From positions 1-49,994 of the forward strand of contig JAJPJL010000008.1 of assembly GCA_021324255.1 (NCBI GenBank): a stretch of 49,994 bases of DNA, read 5' to 3'. The position numbers and the translations under genes are program-made. Of this stretch, positions 40,870-44,866 are shown piece after piece. The notes below the pieces were generated by a model. That model was given only the letters and a program-made list of their open reading frames with translations, made no database searches and was not told the DNA's origin. Each line of letters begins with the position of its first letter. Positions within the stretch are counted from its first letter, which is position 1. Origin of the DNA: Bacillota bacterium (GTDB lineage Bacteria > Sysuimicrobiota > Sysuimicrobiia > Sysuimicrobiales > Segetimicrobiaceae).

Positions 40870-40956
40870 TAGCGGCCGATCTGCAAGCAACGCGCGCGGT
40901 GCGCGGAAACGGGAGATCGCAATGCGGTGCCAGCGCAGTCTGTGGAGTGCCGGGCG

Positions 40957-41868
40957 GTGACGTGGCGGTACCGCGTGGCGCAACTCAGCCGGCGGGGCGT
41001 GCGGCGCACTGTGGGCCGGCTATGGTTTGCGGTCTGCTCCGCCGGGGCGATCGTCACGCTGGGGCTGGCGGGCGGCCGCCACCTGTTCATCGTTATCGCC
41101 GTGTGGTTGGTGTGTGTCTTCGTTCCCGGCCGCATCGCCATCGAGGCGCTCCAGGCGTGGAGCCCGCGCGTGCGCGAGACGCTGCGCCGCGAGGTGGCGC
41201 GGCGCGGCGATCGGTACGACCTCCCCGGGGGCCTCGCGGTGATGGCGGAGTTGCTGTACGAGCGCGAAGTGCGGCCTCCGCGGCTCGCGCCGCCGGATCT
41301 CGCCGCGAGGGTGACCGACGCTTCCGTCGCCCTCTGCCGGCACGCGGGCGCACCCGGCGCCCGCTCGAATGCCGTTCATCGCGCCGCCATGGTTTGCGGT
41401 TCGCTCCTCGATCGCTGGCTTAGCGCGATCGCCGCGAGCGAGCAGGACTCACGGCCACCTGCCGGGACCACCGGCGGGCACCGCGCCGCGGGCACGCCAA
41501 ACGGCGCCAGGCCCCCGGTGCTCTGGGACGCGGATGCCAGCATCCAGGACCAATGGGTTGTGCTGCGGGCGGTCGCAGGACTGGGCGCGCTCACCGCGGT
41601 GTTGATCTTGCTCTACGAGGATACGAGCGGACGGCAGATGGACGGCGGCGGTTCTCTGCGCGCCGTCGCCGACGCGGCGATGGACTATGTAGATCAGGTC
41701 GGGCTTGGCATGGACGGACCTCCGTGGGAATCCGCAACGGGCATCCCGCTCGCCCCGCTCTCCCAGGATCTCGCCGCCCGCCTCGCCGAGACCTGGGTGG
41801 CGTTTTGCCAGACACCACTGCCGGCGCCACGCCGGCTCGGTGCCTTTATCGACAGCCTCCCGCAGTAA
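40957..41868 (+). CDS. Membrane-anchored protein of unknown function
   Basis: Two N-terminal spans (about residues 22-40 and 43-62: LWFAVCSAGAIVTLGLAGG, LFIVIAVWLVCVFVPG) are followed by a largely helical cytoplasmic part of 240 residues with another hydrophobic stretch near 204 (VVLRAVAGLGALTAVLILL). No known domain is recognised. The GTG at 40957 is preferred because GGAG lies 9 bases upstream; a GTG at 40927 is also open. Confidence 0.6.
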   Translation: MTWRYRVAQLSRRGVRRTVGRLWFAVCSAGAIVTLGLAGGRHLFIVIAVWLVCVFVPGRIAIEALQAWSPRVRETLRREVARRGDRYDLPGGLAVMAELLYEREVRPPRLAPPDLAARVTDASVALCRHAGAPGARSNAVHRAAMVCGSLLDRWLSAIAASEQDSRPPAGTTGGHRAAGTPNGARPPVLWDADASIQDQWVVLRAVAGLGALTAVLILLYEDTSGRQMDGGGSLRAVADAAMDYVDQVGLGMDGPPWESATGIPLAPLSQDLAARLAETWVAFCQTPLPAPRRLGAFIDSLPQ

Positions 41869-41955: not shown

Positions 41956-41973
41956 CAAGTAAAGTGTTACTTG
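41956..41973. promoter_or_regulatory. Palindromic operator candidate before the repeat-peptide gene
   Basis: CAAGTAA-AGTG-TTACTTG, perfect 7-base arms, ends 36 bases before the GTG of the repeat protein. It is AT-rich against its surroundings and sits where a promoter -35 would be. The XRE-TPR regulator downstream is the likely binder. Confidence 0.6.
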
Positions 41974-42009
41974 CCGTTCGGCGGTCTAAACCAGTCATTG
42001 GAGGTGGTT

Positions 42010-42423
42010 GTGATCGTGAGCACAATACGATCGAAGCTCGTCGTCACAGGCTGCGTGCTCGCCCTCGGCTTGTCGCTGACGAACGCCGCCCTCGCCTCCC
42101 TCTCCACCGGCAACCCCACGTTCATAATGCACGGGGATGACAACGGCCCCGGCGCCGTCTACGGCCTGCCGCCGCTCGTTCCCCAGGGCGATGACAACGG
42201 CTCCGGCGCCGTCTACGGCCTGCCGCCGCTCGTGCCCCAGGGCGACGACAACGGCCCCGGCGCCGTCTACGGCCTGCCGCCGCTCGTCCCCCAGGGCGAT
42301 GACAACGGCCCCGGCGCCGTCTACGGCTTGCCGCCGCTCGTGCCCCAGGGCGACGACAATGGGCCCGGCGCCGTCTACGGCCTGCCACCGCTCGTGCCGC
42401 AGAGTCAGGAACACGGCACGTAA
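42010..42423 (+). CDS. Secreted protein of five tandem 18-residue repeats; candidate peptide-signal precursor
   Basis: The 137-residue product has a clear signal peptide (MIVSTIRSKLVVTGCVLALG to about LASLS), a short spacer and five head-to-tail copies of GDDNGPGAVYGLPPLVPQ, then SQEHGT and stop. Each unit has an acidic turn (GDDNG) and a hydrophobic, Pro-containing part (AVYGLPPLVP). GGAGG ends 5 bases before the GTG at 42010. The next gene encodes an XRE-TPR regulator, the receptor type of peptide pheromones in Bacillota. A multi-copy pheromone or RiPP-like precursor is one reading; a repeat-based calcium-binding or surface protein is the other. No homologue is known to me. Confidence 0.8.
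   Translation: MIVSTIRSKLVVTGCVLALGLSLTNAALASLSTGNPTFIMHGDDNGPGAVYGLPPLVPQGDDNGSGAVYGLPPLVPQGDDNGPGAVYGLPPLVPQGDDNGPGAVYGLPPLVPQGDDNGPGAVYGLPPLVPQSQEHGT
42133..42402 (+). repeat. Five in-frame 54-base tandem repeats
   Basis: Units are 42133-42186, 42187-42240, 42241-42294, 42295-42348 and 42349-42402. Nine codon positions vary among copies; eight of them only by synonymous changes and one by Pro to Ser (unit 2). The amino-acid unit is therefore held constant while the DNA drifts. Confidence 0.97.
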
Positions 42424-42504
42424 GCGGTTGGCAAGGCCGGTCCCGCGACGGATCCGACTGGCAGCGCCCGGGAACGATAGATCCCCGCGCGCACAAGGGT
42501 GTTG

Positions 42505-42533
42505 AAGAGCGCCGGCCGCCGAACGGTGCTCTT
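42505..42533 (+). terminator. Hairpin after the repeat-protein gene
   Basis: AAGAGCGCCG and CGGTGCTCTT pair over ten positions (one G-T) with a 9-base loop, followed by TACC. It lies 80 bases after the stop. The U-tract is short, so termination is possible but not sure. Confidence 0.4.
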
Positions 42534-42679
42534 TACCTGGAAGCCCGCCGGGGCGATTCTTCGATCATCGCGGAACCGCGCAGCAGGATTTCGTCGACGC
42601 GGTAGTAGAAAGCTAAAGCCCTGTTAAGCGACACTAACTCTCTGAAAGTTACACCATATCGGCGCGACGGAGCCGTATC

Positions 42680-43975
42680 GTGTCGACGTTGGGGGAACGA
42701 ATCCGCGCGAGGCGCAAGGAGTTGGGACTCACGCAAACCCAGCTCGGCGGCGGCAACCTAACCAAGGGATTCATCAGCCTCGTGGAAAAAGGCCGGGCCA
42801 AGCCGTCGCTCGAGACGCTCTTGTTGCTGGCCGAACGCCTCCAGAAGCCGGTCGGCTATTTTCTCGAGCCGGGCAGCCTCCTCAGCGGCAAGGCCGTCCG
42901 CGTGGCCGTTGCCTCGGCGTGGATTGCAATCAAGCAGGGTGACTACACGCTCGCGGCGGAGCGCTTCGGAGAGGCGCTCCGGCTGAGCGAGGAGAACCAG
43001 AGCCACGACACGCGCGCGGAGTGCTACCTCGGCCTCGCGACCGCGCTCGCGCATCTCAGGCAATTCGATGTCGCGCTCCAGAATCTGAACGCCGGGCGGG
43101 CGCTCGTCGAAGCCGGCGGCGACCCGCGGCAACTCGTTCGCGTCAGCCATGTACTCGGCCTCGTTGCCTACCTCGATCGGCGGCTCGATGAAGCCCGGCG
43201 CCATTTCCTCGAAGGGTTCCGGCGCTTCCGGGAGACCGGGCACCCCGATCTCAGCTTGGGCGGCATTCTCCTCTATAACCTCGGCAACACGTACATGGAG
43301 CTCGGCGACCACGTAGAGGCATCCCGCTGGTACCGGGAGGCCCTGGCCCTGGTCGAGCCGACCGAGGATCTCCACCGGCTCGGCCTCGTGCACGTGCAGC
43401 TCGGGGTGGCCCAGCGCGAGCGCGGCGACTACGACGCGGCGATCGCCCACTTGACGAAGGCCGAGCACCTCTTCGAGGTGCTTCAGGATACCCGGTTGCT
43501 GGGGTGGGCGCACAACAGCATGGGCATCACGCTTCTGGCTCGGGGTAACATCGACGAAGCCCTCGATCACATCCGCGCCAGCCTGCGCATCAAGGAACGC
43601 ATTGGGGACGATCCGGGACGGGCACGCTCGCTCACGGAGTTGGGACGGGCGCTCACCGTGAAGGGCGCCCTCCGCGAAGCCGAAGCGGCGCTGATCGAAG
43701 CCGATCGCCTCACGGCCAAGTTTCACGACGACACGGAGGCGGCGCGAATTCAGATGGCGTGGGCGCGCCTCCGCGCGGCCGGCGGCGCGGTGGAAGACGC
43801 CGTCGGCCACTACCAGCGGGCGATTACGGCCTTTGAATCGCTCGGCATGCACACGGACCTCGCAAATGCCTGCAGCGAACTGGGAGAACTGCTCCTGGAG
43901 CACAAGCGCCCTTCGGAAGCCGCCCCGTACCTGGCCCGAACGCTACGGGTGCTGCGGGCCGAAAAGCACCACTAA
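42680..43975 (+). CDS. XRE-family regulator with TPR domain (RRNPP-like architecture)
   Basis: Residues 1-65 form an XRE helix-turn-helix (ERIRARRKELGLTQTQLGGG, FISLVEKGRAKPSLETLLLL). From about residue 75 to the end there are around nine TPR units, for example ECYLGLATALAHLRQFDVAL, ILLYNLGNTYMELGDHVEAS and VHVQLGVAQRERGDYDAAIA. HTH plus TPR is the layout of PlcR, Rgg, NprR and PrgX, which bind imported signal peptides in the TPR groove and then switch transcription. The secreted repeat protein directly upstream is the obvious candidate for a ligand source. A plain stress or developmental regulator is also possible. GTG start with CGGAG 8 bases before. Confidence 0.9.
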   Translation: MSTLGERIRARRKELGLTQTQLGGGNLTKGFISLVEKGRAKPSLETLLLLAERLQKPVGYFLEPGSLLSGKAVRVAVASAWIAIKQGDYTLAAERFGEALRLSEENQSHDTRAECYLGLATALAHLRQFDVALQNLNAGRALVEAGGDPRQLVRVSHVLGLVAYLDRRLDEARRHFLEGFRRFRETGHPDLSLGGILLYNLGNTYMELGDHVEASRWYREALALVEPTEDLHRLGLVHVQLGVAQRERGDYDAAIAHLTKAEHLFEVLQDTRLLGWAHNSMGITLLARGNIDEALDHIRASLRIKERIGDDPGRARSLTELGRALTVKGALREAEAALIEADRLTAKFHDDTEAARIQMAWARLRAAGGAVEDAVGHYQRAITAFESLGMHTDLANACSELGELLLEHKRPSEAAPYLARTLRVLRAEKHH

Positions 43976-43993: not shown

Positions 43994-44866
43994 GTGAACC
44001 GCCGACGCGTGCCGCACGCTGCGGAGTGCCTCCCGACGCCCGCCAGGTATCCACGCCGGATCCTCCTGGGCCTTGCGCTCGCGGCCGCGACGTCCTTCAA
44101 GTGGACGTCTCCGGCCGCCGCGGCCGGCCGGTGGTGGAGCAGTCTCGTCTTCGGGGTGCTGGAGAACCAACCGTTCCATCGCGTCGCCTCGCTGCCGTCG
44201 CACGAGCGGATGGCGCGGGAGGGGACCCTGCTCTCCCGCTACCATGCCGTGGGCCACCCGTCCGGGCCGAACTACCGGGCCATGATCTCAGGCGAAACGT
44301 GGGGACGCCGCGAGGTCGTGGACGCGTTTCATCCGTCCGTCGGAAGCGCCGCCGCGACGGCGCGTTCGGCAACGCCGACCTACATCTACCACCTCGCCGG
44401 CACCATCGCACGGCGGCACAATCCGTTTGTGGATCTGCACGCGCCCGTGGCGGCGGAGCGCCGCGGATTCGACGCGTTTGCCCGGGACCTGGACGGGCGA
44501 CTGCCGCGGCGCTGCCTCGTCTACGTCGGCTGGGACGATGCCAACGATCTGCACAACGGGGATTTTCAATCGGCGGATCGCAACCTGACGGCGCTGCTCG
44601 ACGTCCTGGACCGATCGCGCTGGTTCGCCACGCCGGACGGCGACGGCCGTTACCCGGCGCTCTTCATCTGTTACGACGAGGACGACGGCAGCGAGGACAA
44701 TCGGGTGTTTGCCGCCTGGTGGGGACGCGGCGTGCAGCGCGGACGCGTGTCCGCGGCGCTCCACACGCACTACGGGTTTTGCCGGACGATCACCGACAAC
44801 TTGGGCCTCCCTGCGCTCGGGCGCGCGGCCGACGAGGCCCCGATCGACGAGGTCTGGCTGGGGTAG
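43994..44866 (+). CDS. Secreted phosphoesterase (acid phosphatase/phospholipase C-like)
   Basis: The N-terminus has a twin-Arg-like signal (YPRRILLGLALAAATSF). The core follows the phosphoesterase family of the alkaline phosphatase superfamily: FGVLENQPFHRVASL (metal-binding Glu-Asn), YHAVGHPSGPNYRAMISG (nucleophile Ser region), LVYVGWDDAND and ICYDEDDGSEDNRVFAAWWG (Asp ligands), and THYGFCRTITDNLGLP (His). It would hydrolyse phosphate esters outside the cytoplasm. It starts 18 bases after the XRE-TPR gene, so it may be in the same operon and under the same control. GTG start without a clear ribosome site. Confidence 0.82.
   Translation: MNRRRVPHAAECLPTPARYPRRILLGLALAAATSFKWTSPAAAAGRWWSSLVFGVLENQPFHRVASLPSHERMAREGTLLSRYHAVGHPSGPNYRAMISGETWGRREVVDAFHPSVGSAAATARSATPTYIYHLAGTIARRHNPFVDLHAPVAAERRGFDAFARDLDGRLPRRCLVYVGWDDANDLHNGDFQSADRNLTALLDVLDRSRWFATPDGDGRYPALFICYDEDDGSEDNRVFAAWWGRGVQRGRVSAALHTHYGFCRTITDNLGLPALGRAADEAPIDEVWLG

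Follow-up and report, generated by a model that had tools for sequence, protein, structure and literature searches.

The window, that is, the whole stretch of 49,994 nucleotides analysed here, comes from a 3.7-Mb MAG (G000) that is 95% complete. Its organism belongs to the phylum CSP1-3/Sysuimicrobiota, which places the lineage outside Bacillota, as had been proposed. Sysuimicrobiota, the name given to CSP1-3, is described as uncultivated and is abundant both in soils and in hot springs, with Segetimicrobiaceae as its family of highest abundance in soils; the paper on the phylum makes no mention of quorum sensing (PMC11604079). Two genes on the same strand form the core of the locus: a peptide precursor gene and, 256 nt beyond its stop codon, a gene for a putative receptor, a spacing that makes them adjacent in the sense of PMC10075063. 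The features of the locus are as follows.

41956 to 41984, forward strand: candidate regulatory element before the precursor, a palindrome CAAGTAA-AGTG-TTACTTG (41956 to 41973) followed by CCGTTCGGCGG (41974 to 41984)
42000 to 42004, forward strand: Shine-Dalgarno sequence GGAGG of the precursor, read from the sequence, 5 nt upstream of the GTG start
42010 to 42423, forward strand: peptide precursor gene, 137 aa, GTG start, composed of signal peptide, leader, five units and 6-aa tail
42010 to 42096, forward strand: predicted Sec signal peptide MIVSTIRSKLVVTGCVLALGLSLTNAALA, from sequence features (hydropathy score 2.44)
42133 to 42402, forward strand: five tandem 54-bp units (TRF); in each, codons 1 to 7 encode GDDNGPG (GDDNGSG in copy 2), the proposed pheromone core, and codons 8 to 18 encode AVYGLPPLVPQ, a spacer
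42680 to 43975, forward strand: receptor gene, XRE helix-turn-helix plus nine TPR repeats, 431 aa (Pfam HTH_3 and TPR_12; AlphaFold2)
42680 to 42868, forward strand: N-terminal DNA-binding domain of the receptor, residues about 1 to 63 (Pfam HTH_3 at residues 8 to 61; model helices at 4 to 61)
42884 to 43966, forward strand: TPR domain of the receptor, residues 69 to 429, 18 helices (AlphaFold2 model)
43994 to 44866, forward strand: secreted phosphoesterase-like gene (PF04185, 34.4 bits against a cut-off of 23), starting 18 nt past the receptor stop

The original prediction of a small secreted protein consisting mostly of five copies of one unit is borne out by the first gene. Signal peptidase is predicted to cut between MIVSTIRSKLVVTGCVLALGLSLTNAALA and S, leaving a short leader before the array. 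The 18-residue unit is GDDNGPGAVYGLPPLVPQ, with a P-to-S change giving GDDNGSG in copy 2, and the tail after the last unit reads SQEHGT. TRF reports 4.9 copies with 93% matches, by a wide margin the top-scoring tandem repeat of the window, and none of 1000 shuffled precursors contained such repeats. Pairwise comparison of the units reveals 37 synonymous against 4 nonsynonymous changes (dN/dS 0.03), which identifies a selected coding repeat rather than a fresh minisatellite. The same type of unit occurs at the equivalent location in the two other genomes of the genus, G001 (three copies) and G002 (two copies, differing by 9 silent and 0 replacement changes). Between genomes, dN/dS is 0.01–0.02 for the core, 0.17–0.34 for the spacer and 1.1 for signal and leader (G000 versus G001). 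These three genomes, compared over whole 18-residue periods, constitute the unbiased test; repeated units outside the window show as many as 10 silent differences in 27 nucleotides, a count that is biased because exact amino-acid repeats had been selected. The window array is thus old, coding and under purifying selection.

The second gene had been described as an HTH-TPR protein with the architecture of RRNPP receptors, and the AlphaFold2 model (pLDDT 91.9) agrees, with an HTH followed by nine TPRs and Rap and NprR as the closest structures. Its 431 residues lie inside the RRNPP range of 250–500 aa, and its TPRs are of the peptide-binding kind as PMC10075063 uses the term, the best structural matches being Rap-peptide complexes and NprR. 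Pfam TPR_12 matches at 4e-35, and Foldseek neighbours of the model are LGN, Rap, NprR and PlcR. In VIA-align, RapJ bound to CSF ranks first (Z 34.1, 348 residues, 3.9 Å), Rap with PhrF (Z 32.8) and other Raps come next, and NprR (Z 30.4, 352 residues), LGN (29.8), NprR-NprX (27.5) and AimR (about 24) follow. TPR superhelices are common, generic folds and LGN also scores high, so these matches support, and do not prove, a peptide-binding groove in the receptor. No RRNPP-specific Pfam or NCBIfam model scored above cut-off, the matches being to general TPR and HTH Pfam families; because no subfamily model (Rap, Rgg, NprR, PlcR, PrgX, AimR, ComR) reached cut-off, the receptor is placed in no named RRNPPA subfamily.

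A search for similar pairs, as the original prediction had proposed, found 43 of them in one order of Sysuimicrobiota. XRE-TPR genes were gathered with their flanks from 43 genomes of this order, all of them MAGs. A fixed rule for precursors (30–160 aa, a hydropathy score of at least 2.6, at most 300 nt upstream) detected a precursor-like ORF at 45 of 84 receptors versus 0 of 132 other genes used as controls. Four cupredoxin-like proteins, each about 150 aa long, were removed and the slightly sub-threshold window and G002 precursors added, which left 43 short signal-peptide ORFs, directly upstream of their receptors on the same strand at 22–277 nt. Their N-termini are hydrophobic, with K/R before and A-x-A after by our own hydropathy score, and count as secreted under PMC10075063. 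Most are 38–87 aa long; those of the window (137 aa) and G001 (about 105 aa) exceed the default propeptide range of RRNPP_detector (10–100 aa, PMC10075063).

Nineteen of the 43 precursors are multi-copy, with 2–5 copies. GDDNGPG-type units occur five, three and two times in the window genus, AGHGDGELL two to four times and AGHGDGG three times, while the two-copy units are AGDSLPGGS, AGDVGPGQNG, AGDTGPGQNG, AGDVGPGDS, AGDIGPGS, AGDTWPGGG, GDDPPDSD, APELPGEN and GQDGPGQ. The remaining precursors hold one unit, usually C-terminal (GDDNDGSH, GDDAGGSH, AGHGGGELL, ADGENGGGG and so on). One more pair, near a contig end in CSP1-3 XU14 (L151), has a precursor C-terminus SGGLPGENGG. In a scan of genome contigs, full-length receptor relatives came almost exclusively from CSP1-3/ANGP1-type MAGs, those with names being CSP1-3, ANGP1, Centralia_MAG_233 and the like; L151 excepted, nothing precursor-like lay upstream of the other XRE matches inspected. 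A search for such receptors in another phylum returned ordinary TPR proteins only. Neither phages nor plasmids yielded a homologue of the receptor, and viruses yielded no convincing one. A weak scan with faulty flanks gave no convincing precursors behind the receptors or encoded on the other strand.

The precursors also suggest which part of the unit is the signal. Most precursors with two copies have copy 1 directly behind the A-x-A signal-peptidase site, and the end of copy 2 coincides with the stop codon or lies at most three residues before it, so that both ends of the likely peptide are visible. This arrangement would frame the mature peptide as the repeated 7–10-mer, for example GDSLPGGS, and names it almost exactly, which makes the hypothesis directly testable with synthetic 7–10-mers. 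Single-copy orthologues of the window precursor end in LVPPLEPAGDDNDGSH, VPIIPLGDDAGGSH, ILVPAGDDHGGSG and VLVPAGDDPGGH; their C-termini GDDNDGSH, GDDAGGSH, GDDPGGH and GDDHGGSG align with the window core and match LVPQ-GDDNGPG of the array, across a unit boundary. By this alignment, the window pheromone is probably GDDNGPG or GDDNGPGA. AVYGLPPLVPQ probably behaves as a spacer, and the AVYGLPPLVP-type peptide first envisaged probably gives way, as the signal, to the GDDNGPG part, given the orthologue C-termini and a dN/dS that is lower in the core than in the spacer. A Pro-Pro motif precedes the core by 4–6 residues in spacers of different receptor clades (L001, L043, L051, L059, L097, L210), as in PPVIYLA-GD, PPTIHVA-GD, PPLKPF-GQD and PPLVPQ-GDD; it may be part of a cleavage site recognized by a shared protease.

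The relationship between units and receptors was followed on a maximum-likelihood phylogeny covering 79 receptors, in which every clade is associated with a unit type of its own. Mapping the 37 unit labels onto the tree takes 37 changes, where the minimum is 36, and a Mantel test gives rho 0.32 (0 of 5000 permutations). Ten genomes carry two or three pairs whose units differ, and when units were swapped among paralogues within fixed genomes, the observed arrangement was the best of 9216. Unit type follows receptor clade and not genome, with a distinct unit for each of the paralogues that a genome carries. Since adjacent genes co-diverge by linkage alone, the tree and swap results amount to co-inheritance, not to recognition or binding. 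Within receptor clades, the groove positions of the TPRs show higher conservation than other positions outside the TPR consensus (p 0.005–0.025). Over all pairs together this difference is not seen (p 0.2), which is the pattern to be predicted were the ligand to differ from clade to clade. In TPR7, E320 and R323 hardly vary among paired receptors (38 and 36 of 42) and are mostly lost in the clade that contains an unpaired paralogue from G000 itself. Position 280, at most a candidate for the conserved peptide-anchoring Asn of the RRNPPA groove (Asn227 of RapF, PMC3601957), is Asn or Ser in 40 of the 42 paired receptors.

The palindromic element at 41956–41984 is kept upstream of precursors in seven family members whose receptors are 55–94% identical, and can be aligned by eye. 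Its motif log-likelihood is 107.6 versus a shuffled maximum of 56.5, and we infer that it is an operator or promoter. The full palindrome with CCGTTCGGCGG occurs once in the G000 genome; a genome-wide operator search for a regulon returned only the precursor site itself, with two-mismatch matches at the control rate, and motif searches in the AGH and PGG receptor clades yielded only the ribosome-binding site or a weak signal. The phosphoesterase-like gene lies directly behind the receptor in all three genomes of the window genus and is a possible operon partner and output of the circuit. A patatin-like phospholipase gene directly follows the receptor in the AGHGDG clade (4318–5421 in L108, 4359–6263 in L111), so that phospholipase-like genes stand directly behind receptors of two different clades. 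The gene upstream of the precursor (40927–41868) is conserved in G001 and G002 and has no Pfam or NCBIfam match. Proteins of the PF00496 oligopeptide-binding family import many things; with 93 matches to it in 3.7 Mb, G000 has abundant peptide-binding importer components, a large repertoire for peptide or solute import. A RiPP reading of the precursor was rejected, a Sec signal being present and no modification enzyme being found among the neighbours scanned.

The pairing has exceptions. No precursor accompanies two receptor clades of 10 and 8 genes (18 in all, G000's own paralogue among them) or six same-family orthologues; the TPR domain can thus serve without a precursor. The unpaired orthologues L038, L099, L100, L101 and L103 were looked at again, with the same result. 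The RRNPPA literature, too, knows receptors without a signal of their own, under the name 'eavesdroppers' (PMC9765709). Conversely, a two-copy GQDGPGQ precursor in G003 (contig C113, 23701–23853; L210, L221) has no XRE-TPR gene in the surrounding 10 kb and is possibly an orphan signal; this unit does have a receptor in G006 (L043). In one receptor sub-clade (L041, L042, L045, L046) the upstream position is taken by a gene for a secreted cupredoxin-like protein (about 150 aa), and three of these loci have a Ku-like gene downstream, both named by eye. The linkage originally predicted accordingly holds for 43 pairs and is not universal. Homologues of the repeat protein far from any XRE-TPR gene, which would have spoken against the prediction, did not appear: at E<1e-3 the window protein is found only beside a receptor. 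The central proposal, a secreted precursor with several copies and an RRNPP-like receptor as its partner outside Bacillota, withstood the computational tests applied to it.

Comparison with known systems shows both shared and distinct elements. NprR-NprX of the Bacillus cereus group likewise combines an N-terminal HTH and nine TPRs with an adjoining small secreted precursor gene, and NprR propeptides in Bacilli often contain repeated peptides (PMC9765709). Unlike NprR, with which it is 14–16% identical, the window receptor belongs to another phylum and has its precursor upstream. We know of no resemblance to NprX among units such as GDxxPG, AGHGDG or GDDxGGSH. Rap-Phr provides the best structural match to the window TPR domain (RapJ-CSF), a Sec-exported peptide and tandem pheromone copies, duplicated in phage Rap3T/Rap105 (PMC11343458), but Rap carries a 3-helix bundle instead of an HTH and is found in Bacilli. 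PlcR-PapR shares an XRE-type HTH and TPR regulator with a small exported precursor, and phospholipases, which are under PlcR control, have their counterpart here in the phospholipase-like genes adjoining receptors (patatin in L108/L111, the window phosphoesterase). PlcR, however, has five TPRs (PMC3601957) to the nine of the window receptor, and there is no sequence family match. The AimR-AimP arbitrium system has an HTH and TPR receptor, an adjoining peptide gene and reported multi-copy peptides (PMC9765709), but AimR is phage borne, and phages and plasmids gave no homologue of the window receptor.

A multi-copy precursor, at first thought to be new, is already established in Bacilli, where propeptides with as many as six or eight copies occur in systems of the Rap, NprR, PlcR and AimR kinds (PMC9765709, PMC11343458). 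New here are the host phylum, the placement of the precursor ahead of the receptor, and the extent to which paralogues come in pairs with their own precursor. Every RRNPPA genus found in PMC9765709 except one belongs to the class Bacilli, and the published surveys consulted covered Firmicutes only (PMC9765709, PMC10075063). RRNPP_detector would miss the window system twice, because it was applied to genomes of Firmicutes and accepts no propeptide above 100 aa (PMC10075063). No RRNPP systems in MAGs, Chloroflexi or other phyla were found in the open-licence literature.

Taken together, the window pair quite probably works as an RRNPP-like circuit of secreted peptide and cytoplasmic receptor. 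The precursor made by the upstream gene would be exported by Sec and cut by an extracellular protease into several identical short peptides, freeing GDDNGPG or GDDNGPGA from the AVYGLPPLVPQ spacers. An oligopeptide ABC importer would take the peptide back up, and in the cytoplasm the peptide would bind the XRE-TPR protein in its concave groove. Binding would change the receptor's contact with a DNA site before the precursor and probably also its action at the downstream secreted phosphoesterase operon, making the response dependent on density.

The repeat protein could instead be a secreted effector, an antimicrobial, surface or metal-binding peptide, controlled by an XRE-TPR neighbour that senses something else. 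Its acidic, Gly-rich units would suit such a role, XRE-TPR genes without a precursor occur in the same genomes, and the cupredoxin-like neighbours indicate that a secreted neighbour need not be a ligand. Effectors, however, are not expected to change fully with each receptor clade while keeping exact 7–10-residue repeats, their ends and their upstream position, and no immunity, transporter or modification enzyme gene adjoins the window gene, which leaves this explanation unlikely. It is very improbable that the signalling is private, or reports the status of the envelope, with the re-imported peptide conveying export capacity, growth phase or proteolysis rather than density: by our own reasoning its architecture would be that of quorum-sensing RRNPP and the two roles would look the same in sequence, but the amplification of copies seen in five or more receptor clades suggests that a larger amount of signal outside the cell was selected for. 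A neutral minisatellite, or short ORFs that are not genes, would fit the exact 54-bp period in GC-rich DNA and can practically be dismissed in view of the within-array dN/dS of 0.03, the exclusively silent differences in G002, the ribosome-binding sites and conserved upstream elements, and the 43 cases versus 0 of 132 controls.

The peptide-receptor circuit may extend well beyond the window. We lean slightly towards a phylum-wide, vertically diversified pheromone and receptor repertoire in Sysuimicrobiota, with up to three recognised pairs per genome and a peptide code for each paralogue, in which five or more receptor clades multiplied their units independently, and signal-peptidase site and stop codon directly bound the mature peptide. 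If true, RRNPP-type communication would have a branch of its own beyond Bacillota, the group of which cytoplasmic peptide-pheromone receptors have so far been described as a speciality. Such a repertoire would shift the origin or spread of this signalling, offer dozens of natural receptor/peptide pairs from which the code of recognition might be learned, and yield candidate signals with a possible use in cultivating a phylum described as uncultivated.
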